Of a DNA stretch of 64,000 bases, positions 1 to 23,000 are shown in pieces. The stretch's first letter is position 1. Every line of letters starts with the position of its first letter. Location: positions 22,701 through 86,700 of IMG/VR virus record IMGVR_UViG_3300044630_003511; one strand, given 5' to 3'. The notes beneath the pieces were generated by a model. It saw only the letters and a program-made list of their open reading frames with translations, had not been told where the DNA came from and did not search any database. Source of the DNA: a virus. The translations under genes and the position numbers were made by a program.

Positions 1-358
1 GAAATTCGTCAAAGTATGGAAACCATGCTAATGTATCACCCAATGCTTTTGATGATAGTGCTAGATAAACTCTCTTATTAGTTGCGGTATAATCATGTTC
101 AAAAAATAAAGTATTACCTTCCCATATTTCAATTCTCCAATCTATAAAATACTCAATATTACATTTAGCCCAAGTATTGTTTGATAATTCGGTTGTGAAT
201 AAAACATTACCATTACGTTTGTTTATAAACTTAACATTGTATTTACCCGTTTGGTTTCCCAATACTTCAGCCCAAGGACCATTTACGAAATGATAATTTA
301 CTTTATTTCGTACTTCAACAATGTTATTTAAATTTTTAGTTAATTTATCGTAAATCAT
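1..358 (-). CDS. TibC/Aah-like heptosyltransferase, N-terminal part (cut by window edge)
   Basis: The ATG at 358-356 overlaps the stop of the upstream gene by one base (TAATG), so the two are probably translationally coupled. About 119 residues are visible. They match the start of the autotransporter O-heptosyltransferase family (TibC, Aah, BAHT): NGPWAEVLG, then a YNVKFINKRNGNVLF strand-loop-strand, then YFIDWRIEIWE, then LSSKALGDTLAWFPYFDEF, whose GDTLAWxPYxxEF is the family hallmark before the GT9-like catalytic domain. That domain lies outside the window. Family members transfer heptose to Ser residues of surface adhesins. Here a virion protein such as the neighbouring tail fibre is a plausible acceptor, but this is inference. 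Confidence 0.72.
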   Translation of the reverse strand, partial: MIYDKLTKNLNNIVEVRNKVNYHFVNGPWAEVLGNQTGKYNVKFINKRNGNVLFTTELSNNTWAKCNIEYFIDWRIEIWEGNTLFFEHDYTATNKRVYLALSSKALGDTLAWFPYFDEF

Positions 359-2520
359 TAATTCCATTTTTTTACTTCTCTATCAATAAGAGAAAATCCA
401 TCTGCTTGTTTAACATACATTTTATTTGTAGTATATCGTAATTTAGATTCTTTATTAAACACATCAGTTAACCATAAATCATATCCCTCCCATAGGGTAT
501 CATTAAATCTATCAATCCACCAACTCTTTGTTCTATTTGGTATTAGATACGCATGTGCTAAATCTTGGTTTGATGCAGTTTTACTGAATAAATCATCAAT
601 GTATTCTTTACTTCTGGAATTATTGTTTGATAATCCAATAAAGTAAACATCATCTCTTTCAGAAATAAAACATGCTTTATGAACTGCTTCAACAAATTCT
701 TTTAATCCAGTGAATATAAACGCATCAGCTTCAAATACTAATGTATAATCAAATTCATCATCCATAGCTTCTAATGCTCCCCTATGTGCGTTAAAGCACC
801 CATAATGCCTACCCGTTAATGGACCTAATCCATTCCCAAAGTTTCCCGGCTTATCCGATATCTGATTTGGTCTTTTACAAAAATCAGATGGTGGTGTTCC
901 ATCAAATGGAGTATTTACAATTGGTTGATACACCATTCCATAACTTTCCAATTGTTTTAGTGATTCTGAACTAATTTGTTCTCTCAAATCATTTGGCTTA
1001 GTCATCAAATGTTTAATTTGAATCTTTGGTTTTTTTCTAACAAATGAACGATATACGTGCTTTGCTTGATTATAAAAAAATTCATCAGCTGCTCTAGTAA
1101 CCCCCGGAAAGAAACTTCCACCATAATCATCTCCACTAATAACACCACCCGGTTTTACTTTATGATACCAAAAGTTTAAATCGGATTTTAAAGAATCATA
1201 AGTATGACCCGCATCCAACATAATAAAATCAATTGAGTTATGTTGAAATTGATTTGATGCGTTTTCAGATGTATCCTTTATTACGTTAAATAATTTTGAG
1301 TTATTACTTAACATAGTATTTTCCATAAATTCTGAAAATATATCCCCACCAAATCCACCAACTATTGTATCATGTATTTCTTCACCATCGGTACCTTTCC
1401 AAGTATCAACAGTTGTAAATTTAATATCTTTATTAGAATCTTTAATTAAGGTAGCCATATGATTGGTTGATTTACCCAACCATGCACCCAACTCAACAAA
1501 TACATCACCATCGGTTCCATTTTCAACCATTTCATTATACAAATGTTCATATGAAAACCAACCAGGAATTTCATTAAATTCAGGTTGTAGTTTTTCTAAT
1601 ATAATTTGTTTGGTTTGATTTAGGTTATCATCGATATAAGTAACCAATTCATTATTATCATATGAATCCAAATATGTGTGTAGTTTTCTGAATATAGATG
1701 GTAATCCATATCCCAATGCCTCTTTAATAGATAATGGATTTAATTCCAATTTAGAACTAAAGTAAAACATATCCGATGCTTTGTAGAATTTATCTACATC
1801 ACTACGTTCACCCCATACAATACAATTATCAGGTTTGTGTTTCATTATTGGTCCCCAATATGATTCAAAGTTCATAGCTTGGTTTCCGATAAAATGAAAT
1901 TTAATTTTATATTTTTCTAATAATCTAGCTACGTTGAATATTTCACCCTGATTCTTACCTTCAGTAAATAATCCAACCATAAGAACATGCTTCCAATCAG
2001 ATTCAAATCCCAATTCGTTTTTGAATTCGTTTTTATCATACTCAATAGTTTCTATTGGATAATCCCATACACGTGTATCTACTCCCACCAATTCAAATCT
2101 TCGTCTACTCCATTCAGATACTAAAACATATCTATCTGGATGATATTTGATTTCATTTGGATTTGTATGAGAACCATGTGTAGATGCTACAATATAGTAA
2201 TTTCTACTATTGTCAAAAATAGTATCTAATATATTGTGAGCTAAAAAATGTTCGGGGATTTCCGTAAAATGAATTATGTTTGGTTGAGTTGATTTAATAA
2301 TATCCACAAGTTCGGATTTATTATCACCCAATGTGTACAACTTACATAAATCAGCTATTTGATTCTTTTGTACTACAAAGGCATCACCAGAGTGATTGTT
2401 TACCTCAACTACCTCAATATCAAATTTATCTTTAAAGATTTGAATTTGCTTTAAAAGGTATTGTGGCATCCCACCAGTTGAGAGATGGGATGCTATATAT
2501 AACAATTTTTGTTTTGACAT
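358..2520 (-). CDS. Three-domain fusion: GT4-like glycosyltransferase, class I methyltransferase, GT25-like glycosyltransferase
   Basis: 720 residues in three recognisable parts. Residues 1 to about 325 resemble a GT-B, GT4-type glycosyltransferase (N-terminal STGGMPQYLLKQI, later SIKEALGYGLPSIFRKL). Residues about 330-500 resemble a Methyltransf_24 SAM-dependent methyltransferase (VELGAWLGKST binding loop, FIMLDAGHTY, SGDDYGG). Residues about 530-710 resemble a GT25/LPS-type glycosyltransferase (GCFNAHRGALEAM, then VFEADAFIF with its acidic metal-binding motif). A host-type promoter lies 26 bp upstream, and the TibC-like gene follows. The combination suggests building and methylating a glycan. 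The acceptor is unknown. The domain assignments are firmer than the pathway. Confidence 0.75.
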   Translation of the reverse strand: MSKQKLLYIASHLSTGGMPQYLLKQIQIFKDKFDIEVVEVNNHSGDAFVVQKNQIADLCKLYTLGDNKSELVDIIKSTQPNIIHFTEIPEHFLAHNILDTIFDNSRNYYIVASTHGSHTNPNEIKYHPDRYVLVSEWSRRRFELVGVDTRVWDYPIETIEYDKNEFKNELGFESDWKHVLMVGLFTEGKNQGEIFNVARLLEKYKIKFHFIGNQAMNFESYWGPIMKHKPDNCIVWGERSDVDKFYKASDMFYFSSKLELNPLSIKEALGYGLPSIFRKLHTYLDSYDNNELVTYIDDNLNQTKQIILEKLQPEFNEIPGWFSYEHLYNEMVENGTDGDVFVELGAWLGKSTNHMATLIKDSNKDIKFTTVDTWKGTDGEEIHDTIVGGFGGDIFSEFMENTMLSNNSKLFNVIKDTSENASNQFQHNSIDFIMLDAGHTYDSLKSDLNFWYHKVKPGGVISGDDYGGSFFPGVTRAADEFFYNQAKHVYRSFVRKKPKIQIKHLMTKPNDLREQISSESLKQLESYGMVYQPIVNTPFDGTPPSDFCKRPNQISDKPGNFGNGLGPLTGRHYGCFNAHRGALEAMDDEFDYTLVFEADAFIFTGLKEFVEAVHKACFISERDDVYFIGLSNNNSRSKEYIDDLFSKTASNQDLAHAYLIPNRTKSWWIDRFNDTLWEGYDLWLTDVFNKESKLRYTTNKMYVKQADGFSLIDREVKKWN

Positions 2521-2912: not shown

Positions 2913-3299
2913 TTATTCAGGTTGTATTGGGTAAATATATGGAGTTGTATTTGTAATATCTCGTAATGCTTGTCTATAAGTTGCCCACTCCAATTTCTTT
3001 TCAGCTGATAGTGGTGAATCATTAAATTGAGTCCAATCGGATTCAGATAATAGATTATTTCGTTTCAGTCTAACCGTAAATAAATCCCGTTCAGCTTGTT
3101 CATCATTAGTAAGTGGGTTTTTAGTATGTACACTATTTACATATTTACATCGAGTACTAATTGCCTCTTGCCACTCATCATAGGTGAGTTCAATTCGATT
3201 TTCCGTAGGAATATACTTAATATCCCAAACATCAGTTGGGTAAAATCCAGTGTAATTCCCATCAGAATCGTATGTTGCAAAAATTTGTCTTTCAGTCAT
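2913..3299 (-). CDS. Tail fibre assembly chaperone (Phage_tail_APC type)
   Basis: 128 residues. The C-terminal half (about 80-120) has the pattern of the phage tail assembly chaperone family: RNNLLSESDWTQFNDSPLS followed by WATYRQALRDI. The N-terminal half begins with FATYDSDGNYTGFYP, typical of proteins encoded next to tail fibres. It lies directly downstream of the giant fibre gene (26-bp gap) and probably helps that fibre fold or trimerise. Confidence 0.8.
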   Translation of the reverse strand: MTERQIFATYDSDGNYTGFYPTDVWDIKYIPTENRIELTYDEWQEAISTRCKYVNSVHTKNPLTNDEQAERDLFTVRLKRNNLLSESDWTQFNDSPLSAEKKLEWATYRQALRDITNTTPYIYPIQPE

Positions 3300-3325: not shown

Positions 3326-6300
3326 TTATCCCGTTGGAAGATTACCAATAGCTATCCAATACCCATCAACACTATCTAATACTAAACTAACACCAGATGT
3401 GGTAAGGTTATATATATGATTATATCCATTTGAACCATTTGAACTTCTATAAGATGCACAAGTTACAACCGGTGGTGAACCAAATGTTACAGGGAATGTT
3501 ACGTTAGCAGAACTATTTATTCTTCCCCATTGTATAATACTACCATCTGATAATTTTTGGTAATTATTTGTAGACATTGAACTAGCAACCGTATTTGTTT
3601 GGTGTTGGTTTCCTAATCCAATAAGGTTATCGGTATAAGTATATGCAAACCTATTTGATGAGTTACCAATATTGTACAATGAATCAGATTCAGGTATAAT
3701 ATCACCCTTTGAATTAATAGCTGTTGAGGTATCAACCCCAAGACCAACTGTTTTTTCAAAATATGATATACCACCGGCTGCTTTAAGTACTTCTTGATTA
3801 GCTGAACCTGCTGGTTTTCTTGGTATTCTAACATAGGTATCAGGTGTTGATACTACTTGAATACCACCGGCTTTAATCTCAACGAAATTGGATGGAACAG
3901 ATACATTTAATATAGTATCGTATGTTGGTGTATTTGCTAAAGTTGGCCCAACAGTATGTGATTGGTATGTAAATGAATATGAATTAATACTGGAACCAAT
4001 ATTTGCTCTTTGACCCGAATACCCATAAAATCTAATTGAATATCTAAATCTAATATTACCAGTAGATGTTAGATTCATTGAGCGCGTTACACCAGTTTGG
4101 GCAGAAACATTATTTTGATAACCACTTATAGTGTTGGTTGAAATATATGTCCAAGTACCATCATTATGTGATATAATATCATCTGAAACATAGTTATGAA
4201 CTCCAGGTACAGAAAATGTATATACCCATTCATCGGTTTTAATAATTTCAACACTATCAACTAATACCAATTTAATACCATTACCATCTTTGATGTTAAT
4301 CATACTTTTACCAGCAACTAATTCAACAGTCTTTATTTGTTTATTATCGTTTAACCAAAATCCATGCGAATCAGATACTCTAATAGTTTTACCACCGGCT
4401 GATACTTTGTAAACTTTATCAACTTTTCTCTTTTTAATTTTAGCTATTTCAAATTCACTAAATTTGTTTACTTCAGTATTATCTAATTTATCATTCCAAC
4501 TCCATGCTATTATTTTTTCACCTTCAACAACATCTTTAGCAAGAATAGTTTCACCAGATGATAATATAATTTTAGTATCACCAGTTACGGATACAAAACT
4601 TTCAAGTTTTACGTTGTGGGTTAATATACCATTAACATAATAAGTATGCTTACCAGATACTCTAATGTTATAAACATCATCGGTTTTCTCATTTATAGTT
4701 ATTGATGTTATCTCAACTTCTTCATTTTCTGAATTTAGGAATATATCTCCAACATTTATTTTATCAGTTGTTTTAATACACCAAACACCATTTTGTTTAA
4801 TAATATGTTTGTGTGAGTGTGTACATTCAATTAATCCATTATTTATATTGTAAATTTCATTATCAGCATATGATTTGATATCCAACACCTCTTCAATTGT
4901 TTTTTCGGAATCGGATATATGGGTTGCAGTCCAATCATTTTCTTCGGAATATTTTGGTGTTAATGAATCAATATCTAATGATTTAATAAAATCACCAATT
5001 TGAATATCTTTAATTTGTTTGAATGAACCATCACCCATTTCAATTAGTGATGTTCCAACTAAACACGTTCCACCTCCCCCTTCTTCTATATATTCTCCGG
5101 TATAATAATTACCAGCATTATATGAACTAACAGCTGCGGCTGTTCCAAGTAAAGTTCTACCCACAACAACACCAGTAGAAATATTAACTGCTTCTAAATT
5201 TAATTCTGCGTATGCAACAGATGGTGATGAATACCCACCATGGAATTGCCCATTGAATGTAGGTAAATACGATGGGTATGATGTGGTATGACTAACTCCT
5301 GCTGGAATTGATACAGATACGGCTGGTATATTTAGTGCAACTTCAAGTGCTCCTGCTGCTGTAACATTATATGAACCCGTTGATGGTAATGATACCATAT
5401 AACTCGAATAAACAAAATTGGCATTAGATGTATTTGTTGTTACCGATTGTGGTGTTGGATATACAACCCCCGAACCCGTAAACTGAAAGTATTTAACATC
5501 ACCTGTGGTTGTTGTTAATTCATTTGAAGGTGATATAATTACCTTTTTTTCACTACCAGTATAAAATTGTAATTCAGGTAAAGATGGGTCAAATATTATT
5601 TCACTATTATCATCACGTAAATTACCACTATCAGCATCAATAATCCAATCTCCGATTCTACCATCAGTTGCGTTAATACTACCAGATAAACCTGCATTAT
5701 TAGCGTTTACATTTCCATTAGCATCAACAGTAAAATTATATCTAATTGGATTTGAACCAGAAATTATTCCTATGTTAATAGCTCCTCCATTTATTTCAGA
5801 ACCATTAATTGTTGAACCTTGAACGTTTCCTGAGAAATTAACACCATCACCCGTATAGTTCAAATATGCACCATCTTTACTTCGTAATGAGAATAACGGG
5901 TCATCTGACCCAGATGGAAATCCTAAAAATACACCAACCTCATCAAAACTTTGACTTAATTGCCCCATTGAAAGGTATGGTTTATCGGATTGATTTAATG
6001 TTGAACCTGATGTTGATAATCGCAATCCCTCACCAGAAATTATTCTAAATTCACGACTACCCGCTGATAATGAACCTTGTGTATATGTGTAATCACCATT
6101 GGTATTGGGATAATAATAAGAGGCACTTGCGGCGGAATTAAATTTAATTGTTTGACCATATGGATTTGATGCTGATAGAAATAATCGAGTTTCATCTTCA
6201 GAAATTCCATAAATTTTCATTGCAGGGAAATTCAAAACATTACCAATACCCAATACAGCTACATCAAATGCTTTTATAATATGAGATTTTAAATCACTTG

Positions 6301-11812: not shown

Positions 11813-11986
11813 ATGAATAAGAAATATGCTATGTTACAAATTGATGCTGAGGTTCATCAATTGTTAAAAGATTTTTGTAAAGATAAGGGTTATAAAATGA
11901 ATGGGTTGGTTGAGAGTCTAATTAAAGATAAAGTATCCCCATTTAAAACTCAACAACCAACCAATATTTTAAGAACTAGAACTTAA
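11813..11986 (+). CDS. Small ribbon-helix-helix-like DNA-binding protein
   Basis: 57 residues on the strand opposite to its neighbours. YAMLQIDAEVHQLLKDFC then KDKGYKMNGLVESLIKDKV fits the strand-helix-helix plan of Arc/MetJ/CopG repressors: a beta strand with alternating residues, then two helices. The ATG at 11813 is the only sensible start. The 3' end overlaps the convergent nuclease gene by 11 bp. The array of three 10-bp repeats just upstream is a likely binding site. The basic, Thr-rich tail (about 44-57) looks disordered. Confidence 0.65.
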   Translation: MNKKYAMLQIDAEVHQLLKDFCKDKGYKMNGLVESLIKDKVSPFKTQQPTNILRTRT

Positions 11987-14900
11987 CGCTAGAGAACCCA
12001 TTCACTTTTTTAATTTCCATTAAGGAATCTACTACATCTCGCATTGAATCAATATGTGATATAATCATCACAAAGTCAAATTGAGTTTTAAGATAAGCGA
12101 ACAACATATACAATGATGTTAAGTTCTCATTATCTAATGTTCCAAATCCTTCATCCACTACTAAGAAGTTTGGACGAGGCAGGTTACATACGTTGATTAG
12201 AGCGATTCTAATTGCCAATCCTGATATAAACTTCTCCATACCACTACACATCTCTAAACTCCATTTCTGGTCATCATAGACAATATTAGCGTTGATGTTT
12301 TTACCATCCATATCCAATTGAACTCCGAACTCTACAATTTGACCTAAGATATTATTAACCTCACCTTCAATCATAGGAAGTGCCTTTGATATCAATTCAT
12401 ATGATATACCATCCTTACTTAATGCATTTAAATAGTATTCATATAATCCAAATTGTTCTTCTAACTCCTCAACCTCTTTTATTCTCGCCTCAATAGTTTC
12501 CTTTTGATTTGTAAGGGATGATACATCACCATTTAAGTTAAGAAGTAATTTATTCTTTTGCTCTACTAATGTTTTAGAAGATGCTAAATCAGTTCTTACA
12601 ATTTGAATTTCAGTTCTGATTTCTTTGTTCTTTTGGATTTGTTTTTCATTCTCCAAATAATCAGCTATAAGTTGTGTAACTTCCTTAACTTCATTCTCTA
12701 GCTTAACTTCTTGAGTTTCAATTGTTGATAACTTGTTAATAAGTGTTGATAACTCTCGTTCTACCTTAGTTTCATCTGATTTGGTATCACTTAACAACTT
12801 CCAACTTACTTCATAATTCAATAATGAATTTACAGATGATTCTAATTCTAACTTAGTTTCATTATACTGAGATTGCCTTTCCTTAAATTCTTTAATAGAT
12901 TCAACGGCTTCCTTTTTAGCTTCTAAAATAGTTGCTGAGTTTTCCATACAAACATTACAATCTTCATTGTACTTATGGGAATCTAAATGTTCCTTTTTAT
13001 CATATAAAGATTCTAACTTAATATCAATCTTTTCAATTTCGTTTGTAAGGGTTTGTAATTGCTCCCTTTGAGTTTTTAATCTACCAATACCACTTTCTAT
13101 ATCTGCTTCATCAAATCCCTCCAATGCCCCTAATAACCTATCTCTATCGGATTGTAATATAACGATATCAGCTTTAGTTTTAGATTGTTGTTTCAACAAG
13201 TCGATTAAATTATTTCCTAATGTCGATTTTTTATTTTCTAATTCAGTTAATGAATATGTATCCGATTTTAAAGGAACTATTTTTTCGTTGAGAGAAATTA
13301 ATTTTTGATTGTAGGTATCCACACTTCCAGTTGCTTCATTAAGTTGAGCTTCTATCAAACTATACTCTTTGTTCTTACTAATAAGGTTAGTTTCTATATC
13401 AGCTAATCGTTGAGTGAAATCATCCTGCTTAAACTTTCTGATTAGAGAAGCGTTATCCCTATTTTCATCCGATGCTATGGTGTATAACTTATCAAATACA
13501 TCAACTCCCATAAACTGAGCAAGAATCTCTTTACGTTCGGTTTGTGATTTATCAATAAATAGTGCGTTATTACCCTGAAGTGATAATGTAGTTAATACAA
13601 AATCCTCATAACTTCCCATATATTGTTGGATGATGGAATTGGTTTCCCTCCTTTGCTCTCCATTCAAAGAGGTAACCAACCCATCTTCAACTTTCCAAAA
13701 GTCAACATCAACTTTGATGTTTTTTCCTTTATTAATTATTTTTGCTTTCCTTTCAATAAAGTAATTAATCCCATCGATTTGGAAATTAAGTTTACAGTCA
13801 AATTCCGTTTTTCTATTATTAAGAATGTTCTTTGCTAAATACGTTCTACTTGTCTTGTCAAAAATACAAAATGAAATAGCATCAAATAGAGATGATTTAC
13901 CACTAGCATTTGGTGCAAATACACCAACCATTCCCTTAGCGTTATCAAAACGAATTAAGTTGTTTGGTCCATATGAAAACATATTTGAAAACTCAAATGT
14001 CTTTGGTATCCATTGTATATTAGGAATACTTTCCTCATCAACTAATCGAGTATTTAATTCTCTATTAATTTGTTGAATCTTATCAATCGTATCAGCATCA
14101 GCGAAGTATTGTCTTTTTAGATAATCTCTAATCAATTCATTTTGGAATTCAACATCCCTAACATTACCAATAGAAAGTTTATCATCATAATTACCAGTCT
14201 TTTGTTTGGATAATGTATCCATTCTAGTTACTGTAAATTCTTCAACTTTGTATTTCTTTTTGATATCAGTTAATACTCTTTTAATTTTAGATGGGTCAGT
14301 ATTGGAAATACGAACTCTCAAACGAGGTTTTGCCGGCATATCCGTAACCGCTGGTACAACCCCATTAATTACATCTAATGTATAAAACCCATAATCATTT
14401 TCAATATCAAATTCCTCAAATGTTCTTGATTCAACATCCCATAAAAGGTAACCATGCTTATCCAATGATTCTCCGTGGTTTTGTTGGATAAGTGAACCAG
14501 CATATGCAATGGTAGGAATACCCAACGTTTGTCTTTTATGGATATCACCTAACATAACCATATCAAATCCTTCAAACATATCAGTTGTAAATGAATTTGA
14601 TGATACAGTATAACCAATATCAGTTTCTGCATTATTTACAGGCCCGTGAAATAAACAAATTTTATTCTCACCTTCTACCACTTCAGCCTTTGGCCAATTC
14701 TCTTTTTTGTCAAGTATCGAATACACAACAAAAGTAATATTGTTAAAGGGATAGATGCCAGTATCTCTAAGATAGTGAATTCTTTCATTATTTAAGTTTT
14801 CTACGATTGGTGTAAGTACATCCAATCTATAATTATTATTTAAGTTACAGTCGTGATTTCCGGTAATTAAAAATGTTTCTTTTAAATTAGCACATTCGGT

Positions 14901-15107
14901 TAGAAACCAACTAATCTCTCTAACCAATTCCGGACTCATTTCAGTTTTAGCATGGGCAATATCACCAGCCAAATAGATAATAGAATTTTCAATATTATCT
15001 TTTCTAACATTTTCTAAAAACTTATTGAATACATCTCTGTACTCATTATGTCTTTTTAAGTTACGGATATGTAAATCCGCTAAGTGATAGATTTTTTCTA
15101 CTTTCAT
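11976..15107 (-). CDS. Single-chain SbcD-SbcC (Mre11-Rad50-like) nuclease/ATPase fusion
   Basis: 1,043 residues. The N-terminal part (about 1-330) is an Mre11/SbcD/gp47-type phosphoesterase: ADLHIRN, AGDIAH, TGNHDC, CLFHGP, LGDIHKRQ. From about 360 it continues as a Rad50/SbcC/gp46-type ATPase: Walker A FAPNASGKSS (about 396), two long coiled coils, a zinc hook CNVC (about 716), a signature-like SGMEKFISG, and Walker B FLVVDEGFG (about 978). T4 and most bacteria encode these as two proteins. Here they are one chain. It should trim DNA ends for recombination and repair, and may degrade host DNA. Its ATG overlaps the primase stop by 4 bp (ATGA). Confidence 0.88.
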   Translation of the reverse strand: MKVEKIYHLADLHIRNLKRHNEYRDVFNKFLENVRKDNIENSIIYLAGDIAHAKTEMSPELVREISWFLTECANLKETFLITGNHDCNLNNNYRLDVLTPIVENLNNERIHYLRDTGIYPFNNITFVVYSILDKKENWPKAEVVEGENKICLFHGPVNNAETDIGYTVSSNSFTTDMFEGFDMVMLGDIHKRQTLGIPTIAYAGSLIQQNHGESLDKHGYLLWDVESRTFEEFDIENDYGFYTLDVINGVVPAVTDMPAKPRLRVRISNTDPSKIKRVLTDIKKKYKVEEFTVTRMDTLSKQKTGNYDDKLSIGNVRDVEFQNELIRDYLKRQYFADADTIDKIQQINRELNTRLVDEESIPNIQWIPKTFEFSNMFSYGPNNLIRFDNAKGMVGVFAPNASGKSSLFDAISFCIFDKTSRTYLAKNILNNRKTEFDCKLNFQIDGINYFIERKAKIINKGKNIKVDVDFWKVEDGLVTSLNGEQRRETNSIIQQYMGSYEDFVLTTLSLQGNNALFIDKSQTERKEILAQFMGVDVFDKLYTIASDENRDNASLIRKFKQDDFTQRLADIETNLISKNKEYSLIEAQLNEATGSVDTYNQKLISLNEKIVPLKSDTYSLTELENKKSTLGNNLIDLLKQQSKTKADIVILQSDRDRLLGALEGFDEADIESGIGRLKTQREQLQTLTNEIEKIDIKLESLYDKKEHLDSHKYNEDCNVCMENSATILEAKKEAVESIKEFKERQSQYNETKLELESSVNSLLNYEVSWKLLSDTKSDETKVERELSTLINKLSTIETQEVKLENEVKEVTQLIADYLENEKQIQKNKEIRTEIQIVRTDLASSKTLVEQKNKLLLNLNGDVSSLTNQKETIEARIKEVEELEEQFGLYEYYLNALSKDGISYELISKALPMIEGEVNNILGQIVEFGVQLDMDGKNINANIVYDDQKWSLEMCSGMEKFISGLAIRIALINVCNLPRPNFLVVDEGFGTLDNENLTSLYMLFAYLKTQFDFVMIISHIDSMRDVVDSLMEIKKVNGFSSVKF

Positions 15108-20061: not shown

Positions 20062-23000
20062 TTAGTCAACCTCCAATATTGGTTCACCTGAACCTCTACC
20101 AGTATTAGCCACTCTAAGAATGTTAGGATTAGTAGTAAATATTTCAACCGGGTCTAATCCATCAGGCGTTGTAGTTGATGTTTGTTGTGAACCTTCGAAA
20201 AATGAATATTTTAATCCTTGTGTTAAATTATTTTTATAACGATAATGTGATGGGAAGTAACCATTTAATGGAGTTACCTCTATTACATTATTACCAATCG
20301 ATGGTGGAGTTGCCCCAACCGGTACAATTGATACATTATACCTATAATTAGTTACTTCTTGAATTTCGTACTTAATTTGTTCATTATTTGTTGTTGCCGG
20401 CCAACCTTCAGTTTGAACACTTACTTTTTCTATATAAGATTCCTTAACTTTATATATTTGCTTTCTTGATGAAGTCATATTACCAAATATATCTAATGTT
20501 GTCAACGAACCAGTTCCATTTAATGCATATAATCCAAATCCTGCCAAATCCAATGATTTATCATCCATTCCAATTTGTGTAGATGAGAATGAATCAACAG
20601 TAGATTCTAATTTGGAACCATTTGGAATTTCAATTTCTACTTCATAAGTTGGATATGAACCTTCTAATACCGTAACATCTTCTAATTCAATTAATGAATC
20701 ATATGTAGGATAATCAACTAATAATCTTGTAATTTCATCTGAATTAATGGTTGCTTCATAGTTATCCATTTGAAATGAAAACTCAACATTATCAGTTGTA
20801 TTAATAGATGTATCATGTACATTATAAGTAGATTCAACTTCTATATTATCACGTGTATCAATTGATGATTCATAATCACCCCTTTCAGCTGCTGGTTGTT
20901 TCCATTTAGTTTTACTTCTTTCTAAATAATGTGGTTCAATTAATAAACCTTTAGAAACACTAGCTCTAGCCGGAACTAAATCTTGTAATACATCAAATAA
21001 TGATTTGTCGATTTGTCTAACTAACTGAATGTATTCATAAATATCTCTATCTAATCTTTCAAAATAGTATTCTCTTAAAATTCTAAGTTCGTTGTAATCA
21101 TCCTTATATTCATCAGCAGGTGCACCAATATAATTGTCAATGTTGAATGAACCAAATGATTTTAAGATATCCATATTCAATTCCTTAACAGGCGAAAAGA
21201 ATAATCCTAATCTATTTGAATCAACTGGTGCTCTATCAAATGCTTTTTTGGTTGCTCTAACTTTGTGAGATAAATCACCAACTAAAGTTTGTTGTTCAAA
21301 TCTAATTTTATCAGATTGATTAAATCCTAATGACGGTACGTTTGCCGTTACAGTCCTATCATATGGAGTATATTGGTATGGATAAATGCTTGATGATGGG
21401 AATGATACAGTTGTACCATATGTTACACCATAAGCTTGAGAAACCGCAACATTCAATAAGTTGTTATCGGCTGTTCTATCTTTTGGGTATTCAAAATCAA
21501 ATCTAACCCATAAATCTTCAGTAGATGCTGTATATGAATTTCCATTGGTTGCATCAGGTAGAAGTGTATGTGTTTCAATTACACCATCTTCCAATGGTTG
21601 TTTCCATAAACGGAACTCATCCATTGAACCACTTAATGCATATCCAATTTTAATCAAACTACCAGTATTCCAAGAAGTATTACCAGTTAATACTAATGGT
21701 GCCGATGTTACTTGCGTTCTAATTCTATCACCCAATGCATCCTTTGCAATAATTTGAAAAGATGAATTAGCTCCAACTAATGTTCTATTAATTACAATCT
21801 CAGTATATTCATCATTGAATATATTAAATTCAGATGTGGATGCGGATGCTACTAATCCAGTCGATGCTGATACATAAAAATCTAATGTACCAAATGTACC
21901 CTTTGTATTAGTAACTCCCAGTTTCCAATTTTGAATAGAACCACTTTCAGCTTTTACAATACCATAATTACCCGGCTGAGTTAGATTAACTCTTAACTCA
22001 ACTGAATTTGGATATGTACCACTTACTTCTTTCCAATCCGTTTGAACATATTCATTTGTATTGGTAAAGTTAATAGCTGCCGTTCTATCATCAAATGTAA
22101 ATTTGGTGCTACCACCCAATGTTGGGTCTTGTGGTCCACCAAACTCCATAATAGTTAATAGAGATTGTGGTACTCCATAACAAGCCATTACAGCTTTTAA
22201 AGAACGAGCCGTACCTTTATGTTTTAATAAATAAGGTAAGTTGTTTAATATTCTTCTCCAAACTTCTTCGTTTGCAGATTTTAAACTTGTACCATATTTT
22301 TCAGTTCCATCTTTGTTTTGTCCAAATGCATACTCCCATAGGAATTGAGAATCGTATGCACGTTTCCCCTCCCATCCCATTGATTCCAACATTTGGAATA
22401 CCAATTCATCTGAGAATCCATTTGAAGTGGCTTGGTTAAGATTTTTTAATTGTTTTAATGAATTTATGTATGCCCAAATGATATCAAAGTGCTGTCCAAT
22501 CATATCTAAGAATAACATATATTCTTCATTGTCATAATCCTCTTTGATAAATCTAGGAAGATTATTATTTAGATAGTTTGGATTATACTTATCATAATCA
22601 TCAGCCACACTTATAATAGTATCATACCAATCAATTGCCGTATTACTTGTAGTTGCTACAATTGTATTAGAAACTTTTGGATATGCTAAAGAATTTGTTG
22701 ATGTATATAAGAATGTTTCAAATCCATCAAATGAACCAATTAAATTATTAATATTATCTAATTGTTTATTTGCTTCAATTTGAGATAGAATATTGTAAGA
22801 AGGAGTTTCGTACTCTAAAAATAAATCATTTTCGGTTAATAAATAATAATCATTCTCCGTTGTTAAATAAGTTAATACAACATTTTGAGAAGAAACTGAG
22901 TTATAGGTTGTTTGGTATGTTTCTAATAATTGAATCTTATACCAAAAGTTTTTAACTCTTTCAGCAGATGAACCAAAATGTACATAGTTATCAAAGGTAT

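Follow-up and report, generated by a model that had tools for sequence, protein, structure and literature searches.

Introduction

How does a phage use a tail fibre that carries two intein-like (Hint) domains in tandem, neither of which is followed by the residue that ordinary splicing would need? The question was raised by an earlier note on a 64,000-base stretch of viral DNA (positions 22,701 to 86,700 of the 86.7-kb IMG/VR record IMGVR_UViG_3300044630_003511), referred to here as the window. That note recognized the two domains in a giant fibre protein, likened them to bacterial-intein-like (BIL) domains, called the double, mixed Cys/Ser pair unusual and proposed a Hint/BIL profile search as a check. 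If such domains cut, each fibre would be supplied in two pieces, and views of how it assembles or is triggered would need revision; if they ligate, phages would own an enzyme-free way of joining virion proteins. An invariant catalytic set, combined with a free +1 position and recurring at one site across many related fibres, also offers a direct and cheap test of intein-like autoprocessing in fibres, be it cutting, splicing or cross-linking.

Phage inteins and Hint insertions have been reported, in articles available to us in part, in terminase (PMC3556154, PMC5259590, PMC3322345), ribonucleotide reductase (PMC3556154, PMC3322345), PhoH (PMC3322345), DNA polymerase B (PMC6892783) and dCTP deaminase (PMC6293099), as well as within an insertion resembling the ribonucleotide reductase of other phages (PMC5526547). 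A table in the accessible portion of PMC7468147 lists 36 tail fibre, collar or protein island hits, none of them with an intein, and in the part of the open-licence literature covered by our search we found no description of Hint domains inside phage tail fibres. In this work we analyze the identity, relatives and insertion site of the two domains and weigh the outcomes that their chemistry would allow.

Materials and methods

Related fibres were gathered by scans with the flanks of the Hint region and with an alignment of the second domain (Hint2), from which 22 of 45 and 49 of 62 loci, respectively, were extracted (designated by L numbers); the window's own virus, loci with match values equal to those of loci already taken, L108 and L113 were left out. 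With the partial row L091 dropped beforehand, 39 distinct rows remained, and removal of six Cys-type fibres and of L216, which has a cut N-terminus, yielded 32 full Ser-type domains, Hint2 included. The Hint2 scan pattern demands Asn-Tyr and nearby residues near the C-terminal end, so that Asn2501-Tyr2502 is partly selected for, and domain starts were recognized by SV or by Cys followed by a hydrophobic residue, so that Ser1 and its neighbour are partly selected for as well. The definition of BIL type A follows the text of PMC4031507 as far as it was available.

Results

The fibre and its virus

Assignment of the 2789-aa protein as a tail fibre (Table 1) rests on its C-terminal Gp53-like_C domain, on the adjoining gene of the Phage_tail_APC family and on matches of the relative L039 to tail-fibre PHROGs; a PHROG search with the window's own fibre protein gave no match at E 0.01. 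Eight further viral contigs, one of them of 270,865 bases, carry an identical fibre with 0 nucleotide mismatches over the stretches covered, which are partial in L003 and L007; because the samples behind these contigs may be related, the eight do not count as entirely independent. Given this agreement in each of the eight, an assembly fault or chimera was thought unlikely. The helicase of the window's virus finds its best matches, of 2156 matched phage records, among crAss-like, Bacteroides and Cellulophaga phages at about 38% identity, from which a Bacteroidota host is a guess only.

Two other genes of the window merit mention. A 1043-aa frame (11976-15107, minus strand) combines a Metallophos domain with AAA_23/SMC_N and looks like a fused SbcD/SbcC (Mre11/Rad50), and a 720-aa frame (358-2520, minus strand) joins a group 1 glycosyltransferase to a Methyltransf_24 domain; a 727-aa gene near the fibre of L019 has a similar look to the latter.

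Table 1. Features of the fibre locus (positions in the window; residues of the fibre protein)
Feature	Positions	Strand	Basis
Giant fibre ORF, 2789 aa	3326..11695	-	Translation; Gp53-like_C above Pfam cut-off; identical in 8 other contigs over shared parts
N-terminal half of interrupted beta domain, about aa 2120-2205	5081..5338	-	Alignment to relatives and Hint-less L239; AF2 strands; approximate bounds
Gly linker GGGGT, aa 2206-2210	5066..5080	-	Similar stretch ahead of Hint2 in single-Hint relative L019
Hint1, Cys type, aa 2211-2361, 151 aa	4613..5065	-	Profiles, AF2 model, structural matches, tree
Cys2211, predicted N-terminal nucleophile of Hint1	5063..5065	-	Cys in 28/28 rows of Cys-family alignment
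Hint1 block B, Thr2292-x-x-His2295	4811..4822	-	Alignment
His2360-Asn2361, C-terminal end of Hint1 (Asn2361, 4613-4615); +1 is Val2362	4613..4618	-	Residue check
Linker VKLESFV, aa 2362-2368	4592..4612	-	Position equals pre-Hint linker of L019
Hint2, Ser type, aa 2369-2511, 143 aa	4163..4591	-	Conserved among fibre relatives; profile, model
Ser2369, predicted N-terminal nucleophile of Hint2	4589..4591	-	Ser in 32/32 distinct full-length Ser-type domains
Hint2 block B, Ser2441-x-x-His2444	4364..4375	-	His invariant, 32/32
His2510-Asn2511, C-terminal end of Hint2 (Asn2511, 4163-4165); +1 is Asp2512	4163..4168	-	Residue check, alignment
C-terminal half of interrupted beta domain, about aa 2512-2630, conserved NFVEIKAGGIQVVS motif	3806..4162	-	Alignments; approximate bounds
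Gp53-like_C domain, fibre C-terminus, aa 2714-2785	3341..3556	-	Pfam 29.3 bits vs cut-off 24.9
Phage_tail_APC (tail assembly chaperone) family gene, next after fibre	2913..3299	-	Pfam E 5.9e-16

Identity of the two Hint domains

A residue check of the translation places the two domains exactly where the earlier note had put them, from Cys2211 to Asn2361 and from Ser2369 to Asn2511, and confirms the +1 residues and the linker that it had named; both domains are also, as it had held, devoid of an endonuclease, being too short to contain one. Each carries the class 1 intein marks of Cys or Ser at position 1, a block-B (Thr/Ser)-x-x-His and a His-Asn end, whereas the Cys, Ser or Thr that class 1 inteins have at +1 is absent. 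With core catalytic residues present and a His-Asn end that no nucleophile follows, the two are BIL-like, specifically of type A, as proposed. Class 3 inteins were set aside in view of the Cys or Ser at the N-terminus of each domain. Asp is common in block F of inteins; in alignments read by eye it is missing from Hint1 and Hint2.

The proposed profile search returned matches with Intein_splicing, PT-HINT, Hint, intein_Cterm and intein_Nterm, mostly near or under their cut-offs. Over the whole fibre protein, Pfam Intein_splicing reaches E 8.5e-8 (32.6 bits, below the curated cut-off of 35.8), PT-HINT E 1.2e-4 (residues 2225-2359) and Hint E 5.6e-4 (residues 2209-2333), the last two also below their cut-offs; among NCBIfam models, intein_Cterm is over its cut-off (18.3 vs 15.6 bits) and intein_Nterm under it (19.6 vs 24.5 bits). 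A six-frame search with Intein_splicing gives 47.4 bits for the fibre frame, above the Pfam cut-off, and a profile built from the relatives gives 183 bits for Hint2, which is among its rows, and 33 bits (domain E 5e-9) for Hint1, which is outside them. The Hint identity of both domains is well beyond chance.

Predicted folds agree with the profiles on the blocks A, B, F and G and the Hint fold of the Hedgehog/intein superfamily that the earlier note had assigned. AlphaFold2 with family alignments models Hint1 alone with a mean pLDDT of 93.6. A model of the fibre region, computed without Hint1-family rows of its own, is modest as a whole (mean pLDDT 64.9, pTM 0.43), with 73-96 per ten-residue block in Hint2 and less than 50 in most of Hint1. 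Foldseek returned BIL2 of BUBL1 as the best match of both models, and for Hint1 the same structure was the best among the VIA matches listed (Z 19.8, rmsd 1.5 over 131 residues); further top structural matches include 2lwy (a Clostridium thermocellum BIL) and mini-inteins. A search of viral folds with the fibre model retrieved terminases, helicases and phage or giant-virus proteins named Hint, with no close fibre match.

Two families

Hint2 is a conserved part of the fibre family as judged by alignment, sitting singly at the equivalent place in relatives: apart from L239, and from L030 and L235, which begin beyond the site, every fibre covering the site has one Ser-type Hint. The 32 distinct Ser-type domains have a mean pairwise identity of 0.43 and a highest of 0.99, some differing by few residues, and Ser1 and the His-Asn end are present in all 32. 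Only 10 of the 143 positions of Hint2 are invariant among them, and these include Ser2369, His2444, His2510 and Asn2511; under a simple hypergeometric model, which ignores structure and the partial selection for Ser1, all four would fall within the invariant set with P 1.3e-5. This concentration of Ser1, block-B His, penultimate His and Asn among the invariant positions argues for selection acting on the chemistry of the Hint2 family. The +1 residue, in contrast, is a mixture of Pro (14), Val (6), Thr (4), Ala (3), Ser (3), Asp (1) and Phe (1), so that a splicing nucleophile has not been kept: Ser or Thr is found in 7 of the 32 domains and is missing from the other 25, the window's included. 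That related fibres retain one Hint with its catalytic residues intact suggests that they may be processed after synthesis. One genome scan for cellular relatives of Hint2 returned 34 loci, archaeal by their titles except for one Mollicutes and one Cyanobacteria MAG.

Hint1 belongs, by alignment and phylogeny, to a separate, Cys-type family, and the pair is therefore not one of like domains. Among the fibre loci compared, a Hint at the place of Hint1 occurs in the window's virus only. A 60-row tree groups Hint1 with Cys-type Hints (support 100/98), next to those of L123, L124 and L126-L129 (94/95), and Hint2 with the Ser-type fibres (97/91), the tree program warning of long branches meeting, that to the Cys-type fibres included. 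The Hints of L123, L124 and L126-L129 lie near the C-terminus of proteins of 736-831 residues. In BLAST against a small database, Hint1 matches Hint2 with E 0.001 and Cys-type Hints encoded by small genes with E 1e-13 to 1e-18; together with the placement in different groups of the tree, this rules out a local tandem duplication of one Hint. Cys1 is present in all 28 rows of the Cys-family alignment and the His-Asn end in 25, counts that are not unbiased, since the rows were chosen from 78 loci (the window's included) with late-starting and end-lacking loci among those omitted.

A source of Hint1 elsewhere in the same genome was also considered and rejected, there being no Cys-family matches beyond these two in the 270,865-base record or in a 168,635-base record. 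The 252,603-base record of a relative has one match to the Cys-family model, and all Intein_splicing matches in this record and in the 270,865-base record lie within the fibre frame. The G+C content is low in both Hint1 (0.274) and Hint2 (0.280), neither outside the range of 453-base stretches of the fibre upstream of Hint1 (mean 0.323, sd 0.026, range 0.252-0.389), so that composition gives no argument for or against a foreign origin of Hint1.

The insertion site

The nearest comparison for the site is L019, a full-length orthologue that carries Hint2 alone and is 58% identical over the first 1629 residues and 37% over residues 1551-2198. Where L019 reads GGGGGT-SFPGIS-Hint2, the window reads GGGGT-Hint1-VKLESFV-Hint2, indicating that Hint1 was gained in, or lost from, the linker ahead of Hint2. 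Among relatives, the stretch ahead of Hint2 ranges from no Gly linker (L066) to long and Gly-rich.

The fibre domain of L239 is uninterrupted, and neither Hint profile matches in its 6.3-kb locus at E 10; similarity of its C-terminal flank to that of the window is modest (35% identity, E 3e-8). L239 may thus present an empty site, possibly one left by the loss of a Hint, and from its continuous domain the two flanks in the window appear to be halves of one beta domain, a reading on which model and alignments agree without amounting to proof. As a separate observation, L075-L080 and L088 have flanks that by eye are little like those of the window, yet carry this Ser-type Hint too, as though it marked a joint between fibre modules.

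Hint domains in neighbouring genes and other phages

Outside the window's virus, a small gene directly adjoining the fibre gene encodes a C-terminal Cys-type Hint, mostly after a Gly-rich stretch, in 10 of the 33 rows with a complete fibre end, or 9 of 31 if L156 and L091 are omitted, which by their tails look like truncated copies. This two-gene unit of a Ser-Hint fibre and a small protein starting with MAL or MAI occurs in L029, L040, L043, L026, L023, L140, L148, L155 and L232 and their copies. The Cys and the His-Asn end are found in each of the nine small proteins; block-B His is present in five and replaced by Gln in four, so that part of the Cys family may be decaying. The small-gene Hints of L143, L147, L158 and L159 have Gln for block-B His and retain Cys1 and His-Asn.

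The view that the window's pair is unusual stands as regards its two types and their pairing, and falls as regards tandem Hints as such: at least two in one frame occur at 7 of 70 loci of the Cys-family scan outside the window's virus, a count that omits L191, where two partial matches, separated by 228 residues, may represent a single domain with an interruption. A 914-aa frame (L160:3159-5900) has four Hints by a profile built here, the first weak at 30 bits, or three by Pfam, with two-residue linkers between the later ones; L161, L169, L182, L184, L189 and L190 have two each, the second often partial.

A small-gene Hint protein finds matches in 63 records of cultured phages, of which 48 are Erwinia phages. 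The window's Hint region has two matches in phage records, both weak, and that of L124 has five; tblastn with the Cys-type fibre L105 and with the Hints of L161 found nothing in cultured phages at E 1e-4. Proteins of Erwinia phage Alexandra, Yersinia phage fHe-Yen9-02 and phage NCTB resemble the window in having a Cys-type Hint encoded among tail genes; unlike the window's pair, the Hint in the three proteins read is single and C-terminal, behind a collagen-like or other N-terminal part. Their genes are variously annotated as virion structural protein, tail fiber, hypothetical or large intein domain protein. In L194:3017-4459 and L195:3014-4456 (fHe-Yen9-02 and Alexandra), collagen-like proteins annotated as virion structural end in a Cys-type Hint followed by about 10 residues.

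Discussion

On balance we favour an account in which two catalytically equipped BIL-type Hints of separate origin mainly cut the fibre, giving shaft and tip chains, some of which may be religated. From the domains, their residues, families and conservation, and from the empty site of one relative, we infer an order of acquisition, a chemistry and its products. Hint2 would be an old insertion, placed in a loop of a single beta domain close to the tip of the fibre, and Hint1 a later addition to the Gly-rich linker directly ahead of it. Once translated, each Hint would fold and act on its two ends. At the C-terminal end, cyclization of the Asn2361 or Asn2511 side chain would break the polypeptide immediately after that residue; at the N-terminal end, the preceding bond would be converted by Cys2211 or Ser2369 to a (thio)ester open to hydrolysis or to attack by a free amine. 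With Val and Asp at +1, ordinary intein splicing would be unavailable. The commonest outcome would be cutting, at the Asn ends first, and the mature fibre would consist of two chains, shaft and tip, associated non-covalently within the same beta domain, with a fraction perhaps religated. BIL type A behaviour, as described in the accessible text of PMC4031507, fits the invariant N-terminal nucleophile, block-B His, His-Asn end and free +1; that the two chains would stay together is suggested by analogy with EscU-type proteins, whose pieces remain associated after a cut at Asn-Pro (PMC3189125, seen in part). Three points speak against cutting: the invariant residues are equally compatible with silent, complete splicing, the Asp of block F and, in four of nine small-gene relatives, block-B His are missing, and a single relative, L239, provides the putative empty site.

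Complete excision is the strongest competitor, though we regard it as rather unlikely. Both Hints would leave and their flanks would be joined, as happens when type A BILs splice via the amine that Asn cyclization releases, so that the fibre would be continuous and the Hints silent passengers like mini-inteins. The available text of PMC4031507 cuts both ways, in that type A BILs are able to splice without a +1 nucleophile and yield mostly cleavage products. In favour of excision, the insertion sits in a loop and the domain concerned is unbroken in L239, and Ser or Thr does stand at +1 in a minority of Ser-type domains; yet both +1 and -1 residues are variable, the stretch ahead of Hint2 differs widely among relatives, and the domains are too short for the endonuclease that would account for their spread.

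We give distinctly less credence to the idea that the Hints are now non-catalytic ornaments of the folded fibre, for instance a spacer or a binding module. A Hint fold has its two ends near each other and so fits a loop without being removed, and the loss of block-B His in four of nine small-gene Cys-type relatives would agree with such a role; the retention of all four catalytic residues in each of the 32 Ser-type fibre Hints, when so few positions are invariant, speaks against it.

It is very improbable that the two Hints cooperate, the Thr2210-Cys2211 thioester of Hint1 being attacked by the Asp2512 amine freed by Hint2 so that 2211-2511 is removed in one step, or the activated end being passed to another subunit. 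Nine distinct relatives do combine a Ser-type fibre Hint with a Cys-type Hint in an adjoining small gene, which makes the window look like both types merged into one chain, and BIL2, the nearest solved structure, links a ubiquitin-like domain to proteins by an isopeptide bond (PMC8616854, seen in part). Against this, the nearest relatives of Hint1 are the L123-L129 group and not the small-gene Hints, and four of nine of the latter lack block-B His. The slimmest chance of all goes to the extension that the same BIL2 bonds (PMC8616854, in part) suggest by analogy, a two-Hint ligation on fibres of uncultured phages in which the Cys type would activate the end of one virion polypeptide and the Ser type would free the accepting amine, in trans through the small gene and in cis in the window's virus, allowing covalent fibre assembly without ATP or helper enzymes.

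Comparison with known systems

With BIL type A the window's domains share the Hint fold, Cys or Ser at position 1, (Ser/Thr)-x-x-His, His-Asn and the lack of a +1 nucleophile and of an endonuclease; they differ in lying inside a giant phage fibre as two types in tandem. BILs without a +1 nucleophile mostly cleave and can splice via the freed amine, according to the portion of PMC4031507 available. The closest structure to both models, BIL2, belongs to the ciliate polyubiquitin-like locus BUBL1, whose Hints adjoin ubiquitin-like domains and conjugate them, BIL2 forming an isopeptide bond to other proteins (PMC8616854, in part). A Pfam search of the fibre at E up to 1 found no ubiquitin-like family, and the flanks align to fibre sequence of relatives, so that a BUBL-type locus was rejected.

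Class 1 mini-inteins (Ssp/Npu DnaB, gp41-1) have in common with the window the fold, blocks A, B, F and G and insertion into a domain that a relative has in one piece, and differ from it in that here the +1 residues are Val and Asp, the host is a structural fibre and the residues flanking the insertion are not conserved. In Hedgehog proteins the Hint lies in the C-terminal part and is followed by a sterol-recognition region; Hint2 is followed by 278 residues in which Gp53-like_C is the only family matched in Pfam. Peptidase S74 fibre chaperones are unrelated to the Hints in fold and chemistry; some relatives' fibres have S74-like ends, as read by eye, whereas the window's ends in Gp53-like_C. 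S74 is a known instance of autoproteolysis in fibres, mentioned in the accessible part of an overview of jumbo phages (PMC7824862), which names inteins once, as selfish elements. EscU/FlhB proteins undergo an "intein-like" cut at Asn-Pro, after which the pieces stay associated (PMC3189125, in part), and Asn-Pro, the commonest junction in the Ser-type fibre Hints, is a bond of the same kind.
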